From the NCBI RefSeq assembly GCF_900491935.1, contig NZ_UEXK01000004.1, positions 3,032,292 through 3,085,842 of the forward strand: DNA of 53,551 nucleotides, read 5' to 3'. The translations under genes and the position numbers were made by a program. This stretch comes from Klenkia terrae (GTDB taxonomy: Bacteria > Actinomycetota > Actinomycetes > Mycobacteriales > Geodermatophilaceae). Numbering within the stretch: position 1 is the first letter of the stretch; each line of letters starts with the position of its first letter. The notes under the pieces are model-generated. The model was not told the DNA's origin, made no database searches, and saw only the letters and a program-made list of their open reading frames with translations. Positions 42,461 to 52,644 of the stretch are shown one piece after another.

Positions 42461-43246
42461 GTGCCCGAGCTGATCACCGACCCGCGTGACCCCCGGGTGG
42501 CCGACTTCCACGACCTGCACGCCGGGGACCGCCGGCCGGGCACCGAGCGCCGGTCGGGCCCGGTGGTGGTCGAGGGCGTGACCGCGGTGGAGCGGTTGCT
42601 GGAGACCGGCCTGCAGCTGCGGGCCCTCTACGGCGTGGCCGGGCGGCTGGCGGCGCTGGACATCCCGGCCGGCGTGCCCGCCTACGAGGCGGACAAGTGG
42701 GTGGTCTCGGAGACCATCGGCTTCCGACTGACCCGCGGGGTGCTGGCGTCGGCAGAGCGACCGGTGCCGCCGTCGCTGGCCGACGTGCTGGCCCGGTCCC
42801 GGCGGATCGCCGTGCTCGAGGGCCTCAACGACCACGAGAACATCGGCTCGATCGGCCGGTCGGCGGTGGCGCTGGGCGTGGACGCCCTGCTGCTGGACCC
42901 CAGCTGCGCGGACCCCTTCTACCGGCGGTCGGTGCGGGTGTCCATGGGGCACCTGCTGACCCTGCCGGTCGTGGCGCTCGAGGACTGGCCCGGCGACCTG
43001 GCCACGGTGCGCGCTGCCGGCTTCACGACGGTCGCGCTGACGCCGGACCCGGGGGCGGTCGACCTGCGGTCGCTGGACCCGGTCGAGCACCCCCGGACGG
43101 CGCTGCTGCTGGGCGCGGAGGGCCCCGGGCTCACCGAGGGGGCGATGGCCGCCGTCGACGTCCGGGCCCGGATCGCGATGCGCTCGGGCGTGGACTCCCT
43201 GGGCGTCGCGGCGGCCGCCGCCGTCGCGTTCGCCCAGCTCCGCTAG
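42461..43246 (+). CDS. TrmH/SpoU-family RNA 2'-O-methyltransferase
   Basis: 261 residues. SPOUT knot motifs: VLEGLNDHENIGSIGRSA (motif 1), TALLLGAEGPGLTEGAM (motif 2) and MRSGVDSLGVAAAAAVAF (motif 3), which bind SAM and RNA. The N-terminal 90 residues (GPVVVEGVTAVERLLETGLQ) are the substrate-binding domain. It should methylate a ribose in rRNA or tRNA; the site is unknown. It matches the position of Rv0881 (from memory). CATGAT lies 8 bases before GTG 42461. Its TAG overlaps the convergent gene's stop in CTAG. Confidence 0.9.
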   Translation: MPELITDPRDPRVADFHDLHAGDRRPGTERRSGPVVVEGVTAVERLLETGLQLRALYGVAGRLAALDIPAGVPAYEADKWVVSETIGFRLTRGVLASAERPVPPSLADVLARSRRIAVLEGLNDHENIGSIGRSAVALGVDALLLDPSCADPFYRRSVRVSMGHLLTLPVVALEDWPGDLATVRAAGFTTVALTPDPGAVDLRSLDPVEHPRTALLLGAEGPGLTEGAMAAVDVRARIAMRSGVDSLGVAAAAAVAFAQLR

Positions 43247-43719
43247 CCGCGCAGGCTCAGCCGGGCCAGGTGGGCGCGGGCCTGCTCGGCGAACTGCGGG
43301 TTGCACAGCACGTCGTACCGGCCGGCGACGATCTTCTGGCCGGTGGTGGCGAAGTCGCGGCGGCCGCGGGTGGCGGCGAACCCGGCCAGGCCGAACAGCG
43401 CGCCGAACACCAGTCCGATGACCAGGCCGGTCAGCACGGAGCTGATCCAGCTGGAGCCGTCGGGGGCGAAGATGCCCAGCAGCAGCCCGACGAACAGACC
43501 GAACCAGGCGCCGGAGGCGGCCCCGGCCGCGGCGGCCCGGCCGTAGGTCAGCCGGCCGACGACCTGCTCGACCGAGCGGAGGTCGGTCCCCACGATCTGG
43601 ACGTTCTCGACCGGGAAGTTCTCGTCGGACAGGTAGTCGACCGCGCGCTGCGCCTGGGCGTAGTCCGCGTAGGTCCCCACCTGGACACCCCCGGCGGGCA
43701 TGGACACCGATGCGGTCAT
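43243..43719 (-). CDS. General stress protein with glycine-zipper membrane hairpin
   Basis: 158 residues. N-terminal alpha/beta domain (VQVGTYADYAQAQRAVDYLSDENFPVENV) of the general stress protein 17M/YflT type, then two Gly-rich membrane helices (GLFVGLLLGIF and LVIGLVFGALFGLAGFAA), and a short C-terminal domain (YDVLCNPQFAEQARAHLARL). Function is unknown; homologues are induced by stress. ATG 43719 follows GAGGAGG. A GGTGT-N16-GGGTAG sequence upstream fits a SigB/SigF-type promoter. Confidence 0.82.
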   Translation of the reverse strand: MTASVSMPAGGVQVGTYADYAQAQRAVDYLSDENFPVENVQIVGTDLRSVEQVVGRLTYGRAAAAGAASGAWFGLFVGLLLGIFAPDGSSWISSVLTGLVIGLVFGALFGLAGFAATRGRRDFATTGQKIVAGRYDVLCNPQFAEQARAHLARLSLRG

Positions 43720-43764
43720 GGCTGTCGTCCTCCTCGTGCTGCGGCGTTGTTGCCGGAACCAGCA

Positions 43765-43791
43765 CTACCCAGAACGCGCAGGTCGGACACC
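43765..43791 (-). promoter_or_regulatory. Candidate SigB/SigF-type promoter of the general stress gene
   Basis: On the minus strand GGTGT (43787-43791), 16 bases, then GGGTAG (43765-43770), 45 bases before the ATG; compare the GGTTT-N15-17-GGGTA general-stress consensus. Confidence 0.4.
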
Positions 43792-43808
43792 GAGTGCCCG
43801 GTCACCCC

Positions 43809-44702
43809 TCAGCGGTGGCGGCGGACCCCGAAGACGATGTCCTCCCAGGCGGGGATGGCCGCGCGGGGGTCCTCGGCCTCGCCGTCGACGCGGTCGAAGA
43901 CCACGGTGTCGTGCTCGGGGCCGCCGTCGCCGGACAGCAGCACGTCGACCGGGCTGCCGTCGACGGGCACCACGTTGCGCACCTCGTCGTCCTCGACGGC
44001 CGGCTCGGCCTCCTCCTCGGGGACCCAGGGCTGCTCGACGACCGCGGCGATGGTCCGCCGCGGGGGCGGGCTGGCCGGCAGGCCGGCCGGGACGTCGGGG
44101 ACGACGCGCACCAGCCGGGTGCCCTCGGCGAAGTCCATCGTGGTGGCGTCGACCGGGGTGACCGTGCGGGTGCTGGTGTCGTAGCTCCACTTGGTGGTGC
44201 CCGACTTGTGCCCGGCCTTCCAGGCGGCGCGGACCTGCCAGGTGCCGTCGTCGGTGCGGTGGGAGTCCCAGCGGATGGCGTCGAGGTCGGCGCCCAGCAG
44301 CCGCAGCCGGTCGGACATGAACTGCTCCAGGGCGACGCCCTGGGTGCCCTCGCTGAGCCGGACCCGGGCGCCCTGGGCCTGCTCGGCCACCCGGGCGCGC
44401 TCCTGCAGGACGGGGTGGGCGAAGCGCATGATCCGCTCGACCGGGGTGCCCGAGGCGTGCGCGACCTGCTCGGGGGTCTCGCCGGCGCGGATGCGCGCCT
44501 GGATCACCCGGGGGGACAGTGCGTTGGCCGCGTCGAGCTCGATCTGGCCCATCCGCTGCGCGTCGCCCCGCGACGCGGCCTTGAGCCGGTCGTCGATCGG
44601 CAGGTAGAAGCGCTCGCCGTTGTCGATCGAGTCGGGCACGTCCGCGGCGAGGACCAGGCTGCGGCCGTCGTCGGAGAGGGCCACGAGGCGCAGGGTGCGC
44701 AT
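43809..44702 (-). CDS. sepH: Cell-division regulator SepH (DUF3071)
   Basis: 297 residues. N-terminal DUF3071: RTLRLVALSDDGRSLVLAAD, an HTH-like segment (SPRVIQARIRAGETPEQVAHAS, PVERIMRFAHPVLQERARVA), then SGTTKWSYDTSTRTVTPVD. A long acidic, variable linker ends in the conserved C-terminal AIPAWEDIVFGVRRHR. In Streptomyces and mycobacteria SepH binds FtsZ and stimulates assembly during septation. ATG 44702 follows GAGAGG. It lies where Rv0883c lies in M. tuberculosis (from memory), but the amidotransferase operon separates it from serC. Confidence 0.88.
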   Translation of the reverse strand: MRTLRLVALSDDGRSLVLAADVPDSIDNGERFYLPIDDRLKAASRGDAQRMGQIELDAANALSPRVIQARIRAGETPEQVAHASGTPVERIMRFAHPVLQERARVAEQAQGARVRLSEGTQGVALEQFMSDRLRLLGADLDAIRWDSHRTDDGTWQVRAAWKAGHKSGTTKWSYDTSTRTVTPVDATTMDFAEGTRLVRVVPDVPAGLPASPPPRRTIAAVVEQPWVPEEEAEPAVEDDEVRNVVPVDGSPVDVLLSGDGGPEHDTVVFDRVDGEAEDPRAAIPAWEDIVFGVRRHR

Positions 44703-44749
44703 GGGGAGACGACCTCTCGGATCTTCGACGGCGGACAGGGACCGAGCTG

Positions 44750-44755
44750 AGGCTA
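44750..44755 (-). promoter_or_regulatory. Likely -10 (TAGCCT) of sepH
   Basis: TAGCCT on the minus strand about 47 bases before the sepH ATG, leaving a leader with GAGAGG. The rest of the 196-base divergent region to 44898 shows no clear promoter for the opposite operon. Confidence 0.35.
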
Positions 44756-44898
44756 ACCGCGCCGGCCGGGTGCCCGCGGCCGGACACGCCCGGTGCCGGC
44801 GGGCGGTCGAGTTCCGGTCGCGACATGCCGGTGCAACACGGACCGGGCAGGGTGGGTGCTTCGACGGACCCGGCGCGCCGGGGCGAGGGGAGTCGCTC

Positions 44899-46683
44899 GT
44901 GTGCGGCATATCGGCCGAGATCCGGTTCGACGGCGGGGTGGCCGACGTCGGCGCCGTGGCCGCCATGTGCGACCAGCTGGCCCCGCGCGGTCCCGACGGG
45001 TCGGGGGTGTGGCAGTCGGGCCCGGTCGCCTTGGGGCACCGACGGTTGAAGATCATCGACCTGACCGACGCCGGCGCGCAGCCGATGGTGGACATCGAGC
45101 TGGGCCTGACCTGCGTGTTCAACGGGATCATCTACAACTACCGGGAGCTGCGCGAGGAGCTGCGGGCCGCCGGCTACCGGTTCGCCTCCACCAGCGACAC
45201 CGAGGTCGTGCTCAAGGCCTACCACCGCTGGGGCACGGCGTTCGTGGAGAAGTTCCTCGGCATGTTCGTCGTGGTCGTCGTCGAGCGCGGCACCGGCCGG
45301 GTCGTGGTCGCCCGCGACCGGCTGGGCATCAAGCCGGTCTACGTCAGCCGCGGGCCCGGCCGGGTGCGGATCGCCTCCAGCCTGCCGGCGCTGGTCCGGG
45401 CCGGCGGGGTGGACACGAGCATCGACCCGGTGGCGCTGCACCACTACCTGAGCTTCCACTCCGTCGTCCCGGCGCCGCGGACGATCCTGGCCGGCGTCGG
45501 CAAGCTGCCACCGGCCACCGTGCGCACCTACGAGGCCGACGGCCGGGAGTCCGACCACGTCTACTGGACGCCGGTCCACGAGCGCCGCGCCGACCTGGCC
45601 GGGCTGTCGCCGCGGGAGTGGCAGGACGCGGTGCTGGACAGCCTGCGGACGGCCGTGCGCCGGCGGATGGTCGCCGACGTCCCGGTCGGCGTCCTGCTCT
45701 CCGGCGGCCTGGACTCCTCGCTGATCGTCGGCCTGCTCGCCGAGGAGGGGCAGCGCGACCTGGCCACCTTCTCCATCGGCTTCGAGGCCGTCGGCGGCCG
45801 GGAGGGCGACGAGTTCGCCTACTCCGACGTGATCGCCGAGCACTTCGGCACCGACCACCACCGGTTGCTGGTGCCCACCGCCGACGTGCACGCGGGGCTC
45901 GACGGCGCGATCGGGGCGATGAGCGAGCCGATGGTCAGCCACGACTGCGTGGCGTTCTACCTGCTCTCCCAGCAGGTCAGCCAGCACGTGAAGGTGGTGC
46001 AGAGCGGGCAGGGCGCCGACGAGGTGCTGGCCGGGTACGACTGGTGCCCGCCGCTGGACGGCGTGCCGGTCGACCGCGCGGTCGACGCCTACGCCTCGGT
46101 GTTCGTGGACCGCCCGCACGCCGAGCTGGCCGGCATCCTCACCGAGCGCTGGCTGACCACCGAGGACGTCAGCCGGGCCTTCGTGGCCGACCACTTCGCC
46201 CGGCCGGGCGCGGACACCACGCTGGACCGGGCGCTGCGGCTGGACTCCACGATCATGCTGGTCGACGACCCGGTCAAGCGGGTGGACAACATGACGATGG
46301 CCTGGGGCCTGGAGGCCCGGGTGCCGTTCCTGGACCACGAGTTCGTCGAGCTGGTGGCCGCGGTCCCGCCGGAGCTCAAGCTGGCCCAGGGTGGCAAGGG
46401 CGTGCTCAAGGAGGCCGCCCGGGCGGTCATCCCGGCGCACGTGATCGACCGGCCCAAGGGGTACTTCCCGGTGCCGGCGATCATCCACCTGGAGGGCGAG
46501 TACCTGGCCAGCGTCGCCCAGGCGCTGCGGGCGCCCGAGGCCAAGGAGCGCGGGCTGTTCCGCACCGACTACGCCGAGCGACTGCTGGCCGACCCCAACA
46601 CCCACCGCACGACGCTGGGCAGCAACCAGCTGTGGCAGGTGGGGCTGCTGGAGCTGTGGCTGCAGCGGCACGGCATCCGCTGA
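44899..46683 (+). CDS. N-acetylglutaminylglutamine amidotransferase-like (asparagine synthase family)
   Basis: 594 residues. Class II glutaminase domain with the nucleophile Cys2 (VCGIS), APRGPDGSGVW, FNGIIYNYRELREEL and TSDTEVVLKAYHRWG; then the synthetase domain with PP-loop LLSGGLDSSLIVGLL near residue 267 and VVQSGQGADEVLAGYDW. Overall length and segments such as LHHYLSFHSVVPAPRTILAG match the TIGR03104 branch rather than asparagine synthase B: it amidates the C-terminal carboxylate of N-acetylglutaminylglutamine, an osmolyte dipeptide in Sinorhizobium and Pseudomonas. A GAGGGGAG site decides GTG 44899. First gene of a three-gene operon. Confidence 0.87.
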   Translation: MCGISAEIRFDGGVADVGAVAAMCDQLAPRGPDGSGVWQSGPVALGHRRLKIIDLTDAGAQPMVDIELGLTCVFNGIIYNYRELREELRAAGYRFASTSDTEVVLKAYHRWGTAFVEKFLGMFVVVVVERGTGRVVVARDRLGIKPVYVSRGPGRVRIASSLPALVRAGGVDTSIDPVALHHYLSFHSVVPAPRTILAGVGKLPPATVRTYEADGRESDHVYWTPVHERRADLAGLSPREWQDAVLDSLRTAVRRRMVADVPVGVLLSGGLDSSLIVGLLAEEGQRDLATFSIGFEAVGGREGDEFAYSDVIAEHFGTDHHRLLVPTADVHAGLDGAIGAMSEPMVSHDCVAFYLLSQQVSQHVKVVQSGQGADEVLAGYDWCPPLDGVPVDRAVDAYASVFVDRPHAELAGILTERWLTTEDVSRAFVADHFARPGADTTLDRALRLDSTIMLVDDPVKRVDNMTMAWGLEARVPFLDHEFVELVAAVPPELKLAQGGKGVLKEAARAVIPAHVIDRPKGYFPVPAIIHLEGEYLASVAQALRAPEAKERGLFRTDYAERLLADPNTHRTTLGSNQLWQVGLLELWLQRHGIR

Positions 46684-46765
46684 CCCCTCCCGCCGATAAC
46701 CCCTGGAACAACCCGGGGGCGCTCCCCGCTGCACCCCCGAGATGCCCGCGACCCCTGGAGGTGGC

Positions 46766-48619
46766 ATGACCCGGCACGAGACCGCCCTGCAGACCTCACC
46801 CGGTCTGCCCACCGAGGTGCGGCTGGCGCTCACCCAGATCGCGGCCGCGCCCGGCGCCTGGTGCCCGGCGCTGGCCGCCGACGGGGAGCGGGTCGCCTAC
46901 GTGGCCGACCGGTCCGGCCGCCCGCGGCTGGAGGTCGCCACGCTGGACCAGCGGACGCCGCCCGCGGTGGTCTCCGGCCCCGAGCAGGAGGTCGTCTCGG
47001 TCGCCTGGTCGCCCGACGGCGAGTGGCTGGCCTACCTGGTCAGCCCCGGCGGCTCGATCTGCGCGGAGCTGTGGGTGGTCCGCCCGGACGGCACCGACCG
47101 CCGGCTGGTCGCCGGGGAGGACCCGCGGTGCACCGTGTTCGCCGGTGGCTGGACCGCCCGACCGGGCCACTACGCATGCACGATCGCCGACGGCCCGGGC
47201 GCCGACGTCGTCCTGGTGGACGTGGTCTCCGGCGCCCGCCGCACGCTGGCCACCGGCGGGTTCCTGGCCGTGACCGCGGTGGCCGCCGACGAGTCCCGGC
47301 TGCTGGCCCGGCGGGGTCCCCGCGGGTGGCGGCACGTGGTGCTCGTCGACGTGGCGACCGGTGAGCAGCGGCGGGTGATCCCGGCCGACGACGCCGGCGG
47401 CCGGCAGAGCGAGGACGGCCGGTTCGGCCCGGACGGGCGGTCGGTCTACCTGCGGGCCGCGCAGCCCGGCCCGGCGGGGGAGGACCGCACCGCGCTGGTC
47501 GTCGTCCCGCTGTCGGAGGCCGGCGAGCCCGGTCCGGCGCGGGTCCTCGTCCGCCGCCGGGACGCCGACCTGGACGGCTACGCGGTGCGGGCCGACGGCA
47601 CCGTGCTGTGCGTCTGGAACGCCGAGGGCAGCACCGAGCTCGACGTCCGGCGGGTGGACGACGGCGAGGTGGTCGCCCGCGTGCCGCTGCCGCAGCCGGT
47701 CATGCCGGGCTGGTCGCTGGCCGCCGACGGCCGGTCGCTGGTCGCCGAGCTGACCGGCCCGGGCGCCCCGCGCAGCCTGCACACCGTGGACCTGGCGTCC
47801 GGGGCCGTCGTCCGGCTGCCGAGCTCGCCGCGGCTGCCCGACCACGACCTGCTGGTCACCCCGGTCCGCCACCACTACCGGGCAACCGACGGTCTCGAGC
47901 TGGACGGCTGGCTCTACACCCCGCCCGGCGTCCGCGGTCCGCACCGCACCGTGGTCAGCTTCCACGGCGGACCGGAGGGCCAGGAGCGGCCGGCCTGGTC
48001 GCCGGTGGCCCAGGCGCTGGTCGCCGCCGGCTTCGCGGTCTTCGCCCCCAACGTGCGCGGGTCCGGCGGCCGCGGGACGGCGTTCATGGGCCTGGACGAC
48101 GTCGACGCGCGGGAGGCGTCCTTCACCGACGTCGCCGACACCGTCGCGCACCTGGTCGACGCCGGCATCGCGCTGCCCGGCCGGGTCGGGGCGCACGGCT
48201 GGTCCTACGGCGGCTACCTGACCATGGTCGCGCTGACCCGGTGGCCCGACCTGTTCGCCGCCGGCGCCTCGCTGGCCGGCATGAGCGACCTGCGCAGCTT
48301 CTTCGCCGGTACCGAGCCGTGGATGGCCGCCGCATCGGTGACCGAGTACGGCGATCCGGTCACCGACCGCGAGATGTTGGCCACGATCAGTCCGATGACG
48401 GCATTGAACCGCTTGCGCTCACCGGTCCTGCTGGCGCACGGTGACCGGGACACCAACGTCCCCGTCGCGGAGTCCGTCCAGGCCCACCAGGCGTGTGCGG
48501 CCCTCGGCAAGCCGGCGGAGCTGCTCCTGCTCCCCGGCGAGGGCCACACCGTCGTGGGCCGGGAGAACCTGGTGACGCTGACCGAGGCGATCGCGGAGTG
48601 GTTCGACCGCTGGCTGTGA
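46766..48619 (+). CDS. S9-family (prolyl-oligopeptidase/acylaminoacyl) peptidase
   Basis: 617 residues. N-terminal beta-propeller (about 25-370, with repeated SPDGEWLAYLV and GPDGRSVYLRA blade motifs), then an alpha/beta hydrolase: VVSFHGGPEGQERPAW oxyanion loop, nucleophile Ser in GWSYGGY near 479, Asp in HGDRDTNVP near 558 and His in GEGHTVV near 592. No signal peptide, so cytoplasmic. Such enzymes cut short, often N-blocked, peptides, a good fit to recycling an N-acetyl dipeptide made by its neighbours (inference). ATG 46766 follows GGAGG. Second gene of the operon, 82 bases after the amidotransferase. Confidence 0.9.
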   Translation: MTRHETALQTSPGLPTEVRLALTQIAAAPGAWCPALAADGERVAYVADRSGRPRLEVATLDQRTPPAVVSGPEQEVVSVAWSPDGEWLAYLVSPGGSICAELWVVRPDGTDRRLVAGEDPRCTVFAGGWTARPGHYACTIADGPGADVVLVDVVSGARRTLATGGFLAVTAVAADESRLLARRGPRGWRHVVLVDVATGEQRRVIPADDAGGRQSEDGRFGPDGRSVYLRAAQPGPAGEDRTALVVVPLSEAGEPGPARVLVRRRDADLDGYAVRADGTVLCVWNAEGSTELDVRRVDDGEVVARVPLPQPVMPGWSLAADGRSLVAELTGPGAPRSLHTVDLASGAVVRLPSSPRLPDHDLLVTPVRHHYRATDGLELDGWLYTPPGVRGPHRTVVSFHGGPEGQERPAWSPVAQALVAAGFAVFAPNVRGSGGRGTAFMGLDDVDAREASFTDVADTVAHLVDAGIALPGRVGAHGWSYGGYLTMVALTRWPDLFAAGASLAGMSDLRSFFAGTEPWMAAASVTEYGDPVTDREMLATISPMTALNRLRSPVLLAHGDRDTNVPVAESVQAHQACAALGKPAELLLLPGEGHTVVGRENLVTLTEAIAEWFDRWL

Positions 48620-48620
48620 G

Positions 48621-50108
48621 GTGCAGGTGACCGGCACGACGGGCTTGTTCGAGCACTACCGCTCGCCGACGGTGGACGAGGCGGTGGACGACGCCGGCAC
48701 GGTGCGGTCGGGCTACGGCCCCGTCGTCCCTGCCCTGGAGGAGCTCGGCGGGGTCGGCCTGGCCGCCGCGGTGGGGGAGATGGGCCGCGAGCGACGGGCC
48801 CGCGGCGTCGTGTTCGGCACCTTCGTCGACGGCGAGCTGGTCGAGCACCCGTTCCCGCTGGACCCGCTGCCCCGCCTGGTGCCGGCGGCCGAGTGGGCGA
48901 AGCTGGCCCGCGGGGTCGAGCAGCGCACCCGGGCGCTCAACGCCTTCCTCGCCGACGCCTACCGCCCGGCCGGTCGCCGGCGTGGGGACGCCGGCGCCGA
49001 CCGGCCCGAGGCCGTGCGGGCCGGGGTGCTGCCCGAGTGGCTGGTGACCCGCAGCCCCGGCTACCGGCCCGGTGCGGCGTCGCTGGCCGGCCCGGGCCAG
49101 GCGCGGGTGGCGGTGGCCGGGATGGACCTGCTGCGCGCGGCCGACGGGTGGGTCGTGCTGGAGGACAACCTGCGGGTGCCCTCGGGCCTGGGCTACGCCA
49201 TCGTCAACCGGGACAGCGCCCGCGCCGCCCTGCCGGGCCTCTTCGACGGCGTGCCCGGGCTGGCCGAGCCGCACGACGCGGTGGCCGTGCTGCGGGCCGC
49301 GCTGGCCGACGCGGCGCCGCCGGCCTGCGCGGGGACGCCCCGGCTGGCGCTGCTGACCGACGGCCCGGTGAACACCGCCTGGTTCGAGCACCGGTTGCTC
49401 GCCGAGGCCATGGGCATCCCGATCGCCACCCCGGACACGCTGTGGGCCCGCGCCGACGGCGGGGTCGAGGTCGCCGTGGACGGGGATCGGGTGCCGGTCG
49501 ACGTGCTGTACCGGCGCTTCGACGAGGACGACCTGGCCGCGCACCTCAACCCGGTCGGCACCCCGCTGGACGTGCTGCTGGGCGAGGCGGTGCGGGCCGG
49601 CCGGCTGGCGCTGGCCAACGTGCCGGGCAACGGCGTCGCCGACGACAAGGCCACCTACTGCCACGTGCCGGCGATGATCCGGTTCTACCTGGGCGAGGAG
49701 CCCGTGCTGGACGCCGTCCCGACCTGGGTGCTGGCCGACGAGGCCGACTACGCCGCCGTGCGGGACCGCCTGGGCGAGCTGGTGGTGAAGCCGGTGGACG
49801 GCTACGGCGGGCAGGGCGTGGTCTTCGGCCCCACCTGCTCGGCCGCCGAGCTCGCCGAGCTGCAGGCGGAGGTGGCCGCGACACCGCACCGGTTCGTGGC
49901 GCAGGAGCCGGTCGACTTCTCCACGGTGCCGACCCTGGTCGACGGCGTGGTGCAGCCGCGGCGGGCCGACCTGCGGGTGTTCGCCGTCGCCGGCGCGGTG
50001 ACCCGGGCGGTGCCGGCGCCGCTGACCCGGGTGGCGCTGGAGGAGGGCTCGCTGCTGGTCAACTCCAGCCGCGGCGGCGGCAGCAAGGACACCTGGCTGC
50101 TGCTGTGA
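48621..50108 (+). CDS. Circularly permuted type 2 ATP-grasp protein
   Basis: 495 residues. CP-ATP-grasp_2 (DUF404/DUF407) marks in order: EDNLRVPSGLGYAIVNRD, LTDGPVNTAWFEHRLLA, VDVLYRRFDEDDLAAHLNP, NVPGNGVADDKATYCHVPAM, VVKPVDGYGGQGVVFG and VNSSRGGGSKDTWLL. ATP-grasp enzymes join a carboxylate to an amine using ATP. In most genomes this family is next to an alpha-E protein and a transglutaminase-like protein; none is here. It starts 1 base after the peptidase stop (GTG 48621; GTG 48627 also possible), so it is the third operon gene. It ends 48 bases before serC on the other strand. Confidence 0.88.
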   Translation: MQVTGTTGLFEHYRSPTVDEAVDDAGTVRSGYGPVVPALEELGGVGLAAAVGEMGRERRARGVVFGTFVDGELVEHPFPLDPLPRLVPAAEWAKLARGVEQRTRALNAFLADAYRPAGRRRGDAGADRPEAVRAGVLPEWLVTRSPGYRPGAASLAGPGQARVAVAGMDLLRAADGWVVLEDNLRVPSGLGYAIVNRDSARAALPGLFDGVPGLAEPHDAVAVLRAALADAAPPACAGTPRLALLTDGPVNTAWFEHRLLAEAMGIPIATPDTLWARADGGVEVAVDGDRVPVDVLYRRFDEDDLAAHLNPVGTPLDVLLGEAVRAGRLALANVPGNGVADDKATYCHVPAMIRFYLGEEPVLDAVPTWVLADEADYAAVRDRLGELVVKPVDGYGGQGVVFGPTCSAAELAELQAEVAATPHRFVAQEPVDFSTVPTLVDGVVQPRRADLRVFAVAGAVTRAVPAPLTRVALEEGSLLVNSSRGGGSKDTWLLL

Positions 50109-50116
50109 GTGCCGGT

Positions 50117-50155
50117 GGAGTCGCAGCGCACCGGGAACCGATGCGCTGCGACTCC
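50117..50155. terminator. 14-bp perfect-stem bidirectional terminator
   Basis: GGAGTCGCAGCGCA (50117-50130) pairs with TGCGCTGCGACTCC (50142-50155) around 11 bases, between the convergent ATP-grasp and serC stops. No U tract. Confidence 0.8.
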
Positions 50156-50156
50156 G

Positions 50157-51359
<1,203 letters not shown>

Positions 51360-52490
51360 TCAGGCGGGCGCGGACTCGCTGATCTCCTTGGTCTGCACCG
51401 TCTCCCAGCCCTCGACGGCGTCGGGCTTGCGGGGGTCGGGGCCGACGTAGCGGGCCGACGGGCGGACGAGCCGGCCGGTCTGCTTCTGCTCCAGGATGTG
51501 CGCGCTCCAGCCCGCGGTGCGGGCGCAGGTGAACATCGAGGTGAACATGTGGCTGGGCACCTCGGCGAAGTCCAGGACGATCGCGGCCCAGAACTCGACG
51601 TTGGTCTCGACCGGCCGGTCCGGACGGCGCTCGCGGAGCTCCTTGAGCGCAGCGTTCTCCAGGGCGAGCGCGGCGTCGAAGCGGGGCGCGCCGAGCTCCT
51701 TGGCGGCGCGGCGCAGCGTGCGGGCGCGGGGGTCCTCGGCGCGGTAGACCCGGTGGCCGAAGCCCATCAACCGCTCCTTGCGGTCGAGCAGGTCCTTGAC
51801 GTACTTCTCCGCGTCGCCGGTGCCCTCGACCTCGTCGAGCATGTGCAGCACCCGGGACGGCGCACCGCCGTGCAGCGGGCCGCTCATCGCGCCGATCGCG
51901 CCGGACATCGCCGCCGCCACGTCGGCGCCGGTGGAGGCGATGACCCGGGCGGTGAAGGTGGAGGCGTTCATGCCGTGCTCGGCGGCCGAGGTCCAGTAGG
52001 CGTCGACCGCGGCGACGTGCCTGGGGTCGGGCTCGCCGCGCCAGCGCACCATGAAGCGCTCGACGATGGTCGAGGCCTCGTCGACGCGCCGCTGCGGCAC
52101 GGCCGGGACCCCGATGCCGCGGGCGGACTGCGCCACGTAGGACAGCGCCATGACCGCGGCGCGGGCCAGCTCGTCGCGGGCCTCCTCGTCGGTGATGTCC
52201 AGCAGCGGGCGGTAGCCCCAGATCGGGGTCAGCATCGCCAGCGCCGCCTGGACGTCGACCCGGACGTCGCCGGTGTGCACCGGGATCGGGAAGGGCTCGG
52301 CGGGCGGGAGGCCCTGGCCGAAGCGGCCGTCGACCAGCAGGCCGAAGACGTCGCCGAACGTCACCTTGCCGACGAGGTCCTCGATGTCGACGCCGCGGTA
52401 GCGGAGGGAACCGCCGTCCTTGTCCGGCTCGGCGATGGTGGTCTCGAAGGCGATGACGCCTTCCAGGCCGGGTACGAAGTCGTCCGCCAT
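51360..52490 (-). CDS. citA: Citrate synthase 2
   Basis: 376 residues. Condenses acetyl-CoA and oxaloacetate. Catalytic segments: GPLHGG (His) near 205, GFGHRVYRAEDPRA near 243 and NVEFWAAIVLDFAEVP near 295, in which the family's usual Asp is Glu, as in the M. tuberculosis CitA branch (from memory). MADDFVPGLEGVIAFETTIAEPD opening. ATG 52490 follows AGAGGAG; a longer frame upstream has no homology. Probably a secondary citrate or 2-methylcitrate synthase alongside a gltA elsewhere (inference). Confidence 0.92.
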   Translation of the reverse strand: MADDFVPGLEGVIAFETTIAEPDKDGGSLRYRGVDIEDLVGKVTFGDVFGLLVDGRFGQGLPPAEPFPIPVHTGDVRVDVQAALAMLTPIWGYRPLLDITDEEARDELARAAVMALSYVAQSARGIGVPAVPQRRVDEASTIVERFMVRWRGEPDPRHVAAVDAYWTSAAEHGMNASTFTARVIASTGADVAAAMSGAIGAMSGPLHGGAPSRVLHMLDEVEGTGDAEKYVKDLLDRKERLMGFGHRVYRAEDPRARTLRRAAKELGAPRFDAALALENAALKELRERRPDRPVETNVEFWAAIVLDFAEVPSHMFTSMFTCARTAGWSAHILEQKQTGRLVRPSARYVGPDPRKPDAVEGWETVQTKEISESAPA

Positions 52491-52644
52491 CCTGCATGCT
52501 CCTCTGCGCGCGGGACCCGTGCGCCACTGGGCGCACGACTGGCCACAACCTAGGGGAACCCCCCGACCTGGTCGCACCCGGACCGCCCGCCCAGTGGGAG
52601 CTGCGACCGGCGTCACACCTGGTCGTGGACTGGTTGCAGGGTGG

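Follow-up and report, generated by a model that had tools for sequence, protein, structure and literature searches.

Which enzyme supplies the substrate of an N-acetylglutaminylglutamine amidotransferase in a genome where the usual partner gene, ngg, is not found? The question is raised by a three-gene operon of Klenkia terrae, a soil actinobacterium of the family Geodermatophilaceae, in a stretch of 53,551 nucleotides that we call the window (assembly GCF_900491935.1, contig NZ_UEXK01000004.1, positions 3,032,292 to 3,085,842). In the canonical pathway to the dipeptide osmolyte N-acetylglutaminylglutamine amide (NAGGN), Ngg acetylates one glutamine and joins a second to it, and AsnO amidates the result (PMC8070244; this and the other papers cited below are represented here by excerpts). 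In the window, asnO is followed by genes for a peptidase and for a ligase of another kind:

44899..46683, forward strand: asnO, amidotransferase of family TIGR03104 (GTG start, 594 amino acids)
46766..48619, forward strand: S9-family peptidase (ATG start, 617 amino acids)
48621..50108, forward strand: CPG, circularly permuted type 2 ATP-grasp ligase (GTG start, 495 amino acids, core motifs intact)

We conclude, with moderate confidence, that the operon encodes a variant NAGGN-type osmolyte pathway in which Ngg has been replaced by the circularly permuted ATP-grasp ligase. The observed basis for this is the gene order, the protein families, the alternation of partner genes and the loss of core residues from CPG in most of the ngg-bearing relatives examined.

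AsnO scores 947.8 bits against TIGR03104 in a profile search (cut-off, 570.1), in agreement with the preliminary description of this DNA, which had assigned the first gene to the NAGGN amidotransferase branch. The protein has an N-terminal Met-Cys and an SGGLDSS motif, which we take to have the same catalytic roles as in the asparagine synthase family. The second protein has a C-terminal match to PF00326 (152 bits, scored on a slightly longer frame from 46742) and a weak match to a PD40 propeller; its motifs GWSYGG, GDRDTNVP and GEGH carry the presumed Ser, Asp and His, assigned on the assumption that the S9 family pattern applies. CPG matches PF14403 with 370 bits (gathering score, 32), has no NCBIfam match at E ≤ 0.001, and departs from the conserved core at 2 of 71 sites. 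The composition of the trio and the intergenic gaps of 82 and 1 bases had thus been described correctly. The start of CPG is uncertain, as an in-frame GTG at 48627 matches where the gene begins in some relatives; with that start the second gap would be 7 bases. A GGAGG lies shortly upstream of the peptidase gene and a purine-rich run precedes asnO. Counting the window, 19 of 69 asnO loci in the family have the order asnO-S9-CPG, and the linkage of the three genes is therefore beyond chance.

The search for a linked or distant TIGR03103 synthetase, which the preliminary description had proposed for related genomes, found none in the K. terrae genome, in which the best match reaches 32 bits against a cut-off of 569 and nothing matches at E ≤ 1e-80 (assembly 99.98% complete). 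Among 296 genomes sampled from the class, TIGR03104 is above cut-off in 86 and TIGR03103 in 45. In 44 of these 45 genomes asnO is adjacent to ngg by coordinates, and G064 has ngg without asnO (genomes and loci are labelled G and L). Forty-two genomes, that of K. terrae included, have asnO without ngg. We compared the neighbours at 119 asnO loci, namely the window, 41 other ngg-less genomes of the class, a second copy in G196, 68 loci from the Geodermatophilaceae and 8 taken from the 44 ngg-linked loci of the class. Neighbours were assigned by a simple gene caller combined with local profiles; the caller misses CPG in 5 of 80 named loci, GCS2 in L236, and CPG in L336 and L340. GCS2 denotes YbdK/glutamate-cysteine ligase family 2 (PF04107 and TIGR02050 matches), whose members link a carboxylate, usually the glutamate gamma-carboxylate, to an amine (PMC2588565). 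The two groups of loci have different partners. At 53 loci ngg is at +1; neither GCS2 nor CPG lies within five genes of asnO at any of these, an M42 peptidase gene does at six, and one (L146) has S9 at -4. The other 66 loci, which have no local ngg, have S9 at +1 or +2 in 57 cases; a GCS2-CPG fusion is at -1 in 31, a lone GCS2 is at -1 in 11, and the window type (asnO, S9, CPG) accounts for 19. No M42 gene was found within five genes of asnO at the 66 loci, including the 19 of the window type (TIGR03106), a search that in the K. terrae genome covered this neighbourhood and not the rest. Among the best 80 CPG matches in named genomes, at least 16, all from Actinomycetota, combine a GCS2-CPG fusion with asnO; the matches listed include Pseudonocardia oroxyli, Candidatus Frankia californiensis, Actinoplanes, Planomonospora, Micromonospora noduli, Sphaerisporangium, Pseudofrankia and Streptosporangium canum.

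The state of CPG itself differs with the presence of ngg. In 76 sampled genomes of the Geodermatophilaceae, ngg occurs in 52, asnO in 64 and a window-type CPG in 49. We scored 37 of these 49 (the 12 unscored, G351, partial, among them, all bear ngg) at 71 positions whose conservation reaches 95% or more both in 53 fused CPGs and in 53 others, the scored proteins being kept out of the choice of positions. The ligase is intact in all 12 ngg-less genomes that have asnO-S9-CPG, with 2–5 of the 71 sites changed, and decayed in 24 of 24 scored ngg-bearing genomes (of 36 with this CPG), with 12–24 sites changed. In the remaining genome, G347, 9 sites are changed, and asnO, S9 and ngg were not found. 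The changed core residues in decayed CPGs include E181, N183, K343, K390, N481 and S482 (window numbering), which would be catalytic to judge from the depth of their conservation. Decayed CPGs are still full-length (e.g., in L325–L335 and L193–L201). The decay accompanies ngg in a Blastococcus-like clade, in a subclade of the member genus Modestobacter and in G369, with or without a local asnO. The presumed S9 triad is kept in 34 of 34 loci covering all three motifs, with or without ngg (L179 varies at neighbouring positions), and S9 is retained alongside either ligase. That CPG is usually broken where ngg is present suggests that CPG and Ngg do one job, and the alternation of the two genes together with this decay makes it most likely that CPG stands at Ngg's step, feeding AsnO with N-acetylglutaminylglutamine or an analogue.

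It had been held against a variant route in advance that a distant ngg might co-occur with this asnO. Such genomes exist: seven of the Modestobacter group (G301, G312, G320, G327, G357, G361 and G365) have their sole asnO beside S9 and a decayed CPG, and ngg elsewhere. The CPG in these genomes has lost core residues, however, so that replacement of one ligase by the other is favored rather than weakened. Because the seven genomes pair a window-type AsnO with a dead CPG and an unlinked ngg, this AsnO presumably works on the Ngg product. A changed acceptor site in AsnO was considered and rejected, since at 90/90 no alignment column tells the 26 ngg-linked rows apart from the 52 other, non-ngg ones.

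The full family comprises 112 genomes. After the pattern was known, 23 more of them were tested for ngg and CPG was fetched from 15; the eight CPGs not fetched are all of genus g126, seven from ngg-bearing genomes and one from G376, which lacks ngg. CPG is intact in 5 of 5 ngg-less genomes of at least 95% completeness (2–3 changes), and four ngg-less assemblies that are 67–72% complete show 3, 3, 4 and 8 changes. It is decayed in 4 of 6 ngg-bearing genomes (15, 15, 16 and 20 changes). We also compared rates of nonsynonymous to synonymous substitution (dN/dS) in hand-picked close pairs that partly share members. All 8 ngg-bearing pairs that have both genes give a CPG/S9 ratio of dN/dS above 1.3. 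Of 7 ngg-less pairs, 5 fall under 0.9, and one mixed pair gives 0.93.

Several observations weigh against the replacement of Ngg by CPG. In the two other ngg-bearing genomes of the later set CPG is intact, with 3 changes each; G393 is 97% complete in 610 contigs and G406 80% in 630. Either a strict rule fails in these two or their assemblies are mixed. G376 (91% complete) may be another exception, with a CPG at 56% identity whose core is unscored and no ngg found. The fused GCS2-CPG is intact (0–5 of 78 sites changed) in six ngg-bearing genomes (L154 and L165–L169). L165–L169, from the host family (G338, G314, G333, G366 and G308), have an asnO-ngg operon plus a second asnO with the intact fusion, adjoined by S9 in L165, L166 and L168 according to the gene caller. 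Four loci (L149, L150, L153 and L154, in G046, G079, G093 and G064) have the fusion followed by S9, with asnO neither local nor above cut-off anywhere in the genome; in G064 the ngg is unlinked to this locus. In the other two ngg-less pairs the CPG/S9 ratio is 1.5 and 1.3, and in ngg-bearing pairs the dN/dS of CPG is 0.21–0.45, indicating purifying selection despite the decay. From the intact fused copies beside ngg, the GCS2-CPG-S9 loci without asnO and the constraint on dead CPGs it follows that the fused enzyme may make another product and that CPG may have a second role. No acetyltransferase is linked to the operon. Finally, the number of independent changes is small. On a species-proxy tree built from flanking genes (32 of the 37 rows; five without flanking genes were left out), ngg changes four times, two of these changes being forced by starred branches, and a paired test has too few pairs to reach significance. 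Support for the link between ngg and CPG is consistency and the kind of decay rather than a p-value.

If Ngg has been replaced in this way, the pathway could run as follows. CPG would join two amino acids using ATP, most likely glutamine or N-acetylglutamine to a second glutamine, and AsnO would amidate the C-terminal carboxylate, taking the amide from free glutamine. N-acetylation might occur in trans or be absent. The S9 enzyme would cleave the blocked dipeptide once osmolarity drops. A role as a blocked-peptide hydrolase fits its nearest solved relatives, to which similarity is modest: an unnamed S9 peptidase (8wt1), an amino acyl peptidase (5l8s) and two acylamino-acid-releasing enzymes (2qzp and 1ve6), with dipeptidyl peptidases further down. 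More tentatively, one AsnO lineage could be served by interchangeable ligases (Ngg, GCS2-CPG, GCS2 and CPG), with CPG alone making the same dipeptide and later becoming a dead but selected pseudoenzyme beside the peptidase once ngg was gained.

The ancestry of the ligase and the amidotransferase points to the fused operons. In a tree of 73 CPGs built with a quick method, window-type and GCS2-fused CPGs are split from all others with support of 100. The genome of K. terrae has a second CPG, at C4:2841958, which is of the alpha-E/transglutaminase type; reference CPGs were assigned to this type with Pfam verification for L155 and, for the rest, on the assumption that tree position and the lengths of adjacent genes indicate it. 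A partnership of the window CPG with alpha-E and transglutaminase proteins is rejected, as it belongs to another clade and the genome has a separate CPG of the ordinary type. Neither alpha-E (PF04168) nor a transglutaminase was found among eight genes tested from 42461 to 52616. The preliminary description had found this absence notable. Those partners belong to a different CPG clade, and the window clade is otherwise fused to GCS2/YbdK. The preliminary proposal of a variant NAGGN-type route is supported, with the circularly permuted ATP-grasp in Ngg's place, but the point about missing partners needs correcting. The AsnO tree has 98 rows (quick method, AsnB-like outgroup; near-duplicates thinned, named rows added, and L013, L023, L036 and L037 excluded) and places ngg-linked AsnO on one side of a branch with support of 94. 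Window-type AsnO forms a clade (100) that is sister to the GCS2-CPG-linked AsnO of P. oroxyli (97). Based on these positions in the two trees, the window lineage probably arose from a GCS2-CPG-asnO-S9 operon by loss of GCS2. The GCS2-only operons also appear to derive from fused ones.

This descent bears on an alternative that we regard as doubtful yet the most serious of those considered, namely that the operon's product is another amide-capped peptide, such as an unacetylated or a gamma-linked one, which fills the same role in physiology, and that NAGGN made by ngg renders it dispensable. GCS2, to which the sister-clade CPG is fused, is a carboxylate-amine ligase family; five family genomes keep, beside ngg, an intact fusion that has an asnO of its own; and the locus has no acetyltransferase. 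The pairing of a sole, window-type AsnO with an unlinked ngg in the seven Modestobacter-group genomes argues in the other direction, as does the lack of an AsnO column marking an altered acceptor site. Moreover, there is no GCS2 domain at the window locus, either fused to the ligase or adjoining it. Three GCS2 genes lie elsewhere in the genome, at best 31–44% identical to operonic GCS2. One of them, at C4:3943908, has counterparts of about 58–66% identity in many ngg-bearing genomes but matches of only 35–37% in G337 and G342, whose CPG is intact. This gene is thus disfavored as an obligatory partner in trans, a role that the other GCS2 genes might have.

It is improbable, in our view, that CPG decay and ngg merely share ancestry, constraint having been lost for an unrelated reason and the three genes not forming one pathway. 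The few independent transitions (2–4) would allow it, and G393 and G406 combine ngg with an intact CPG. Many ngg-bearing relatives also retain S9-CPG without a local asnO: none of 20 fetched family loci with S9 and/or CPG has asnO, 16 show both genes according to the gene caller, and most lie between sepH and serC. The loss of linkage that the preliminary description had named as part of a refuting case has therefore occurred, but the three-gene order is kept at the 19 window-type loci. The decay, furthermore, tracks ngg in separate branches of the family, whether or not asnO is local. That AsnO is an ordinary asparagine synthetase with incidental neighbors is hardly credible: it exceeds the cut-off of TIGR01536 (395.5 against 267.1 bits), but its TIGR03104 score is far higher and it groups with TIGR03104 rows, including the AsnO of S. 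meliloti and Azospirillum, apart from five AsnB-like rows.

The operon can be set against three known systems. With the canonical NAGGN trio (asnO-ngg-M42: TIGR03104, TIGR03103 and TIGR03106) the operon shares the amidotransferase family and the combination of a peptide ligase with a peptidase, and the seven relatives described above carry this AsnO lineage together with an ngg located elsewhere. It differs in that the ligase is a circularly permuted ATP-grasp without a GNAT domain, the peptidase is of family S9 instead of M42, and the genome has no detected ngg. The GCS2(YbdK)-CPG and asnO operons, some with S9, of Frankia, Actinoplanes, Streptosporangium, Planomonospora and P. oroxyli have homologous AsnO, S9 and CPG domains, whereas the window lineage has no GCS2 domain, and its CPG follows S9 rather than preceding asnO. 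The loci with CP-ATP-grasp, alpha-E and transglutaminase genes share the Pfam family of the ligase, in which the only solved relative found is 3n6x, but they differ in CPG clade and in their partner genes.

Published accounts touch on these systems at several points. A Micromonospora with asnO and ngg makes NAGGN (PMC8146288). In Casuarina Frankia, the asnO cluster has a putative Ngg less than 15% identical to known Ngg and separated from asnO by a dipeptidase gene, and was still called asnO-ngg by the authors (PMC5563000). In Frankia alni, FRAAL1888, a "glutamine amidotransferase" assigned to NAGGN synthesis, is up 2.2-fold under polyethylene glycol (PMC5768760); it may be the asnO of a GCS2-CPG operon. 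The co-occurrence of alpha-E, transglutaminase and CP-ATP-grasp domains is described in PMC3597751, and COG2308 is given as of unknown function in PMC8407117; the excerpts of these two papers and of PMC2588565 do not mention the asnO-S9-CPG arrangement. Among the open-licence titles and beginnings of abstracts listed, we found no description of CPG or GCS2-CPG as a NAGGN ligase or a substitute for Ngg, though older papers on amidoligases or NAGGN might hold one. If true, the replacement would mean that a widespread dipeptide osmolyte has a second route of different construction, and it would suggest a substrate class for the large uncharacterised ligase family PF14403. The annotation "N-acetylglutaminylglutamine amidotransferase" need not mean that ngg is present. 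The Modestobacter group, with ngg-less and ngg-bearing members, offers ready strains for a metabolite comparison.

The operon is flanked by two genes that are outside the pathway and mark the syntenic place:

43809..44702, reverse strand: sepH, divergent from asnO (start chosen; the open frame extends to 45131)
50157..51272, reverse strand: serC, convergent with CPG

Relatives show further states of the S9-CPG pair, as in a stepwise loss. G296 (L343) retains S9 and has no window-type CPG, and the same is suggested for G308 and G316; in G363 (L336) a decayed CPG is retained and S9 is only distant. A GCS2-asnO-hydrolase operon is found in the deposited annotation of the large Streptomyces fungicidicus plasmid p1 (L240), near an OsmC-family gene and a SpoIIE-type phosphatase gene. 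In many relatives (e.g., L160, L175, L176, L178 and L179), though not in the window, a pair of genes of about 600 amino acids (cluster c10) lies between a YflT-domain gene and sepH/asnO.

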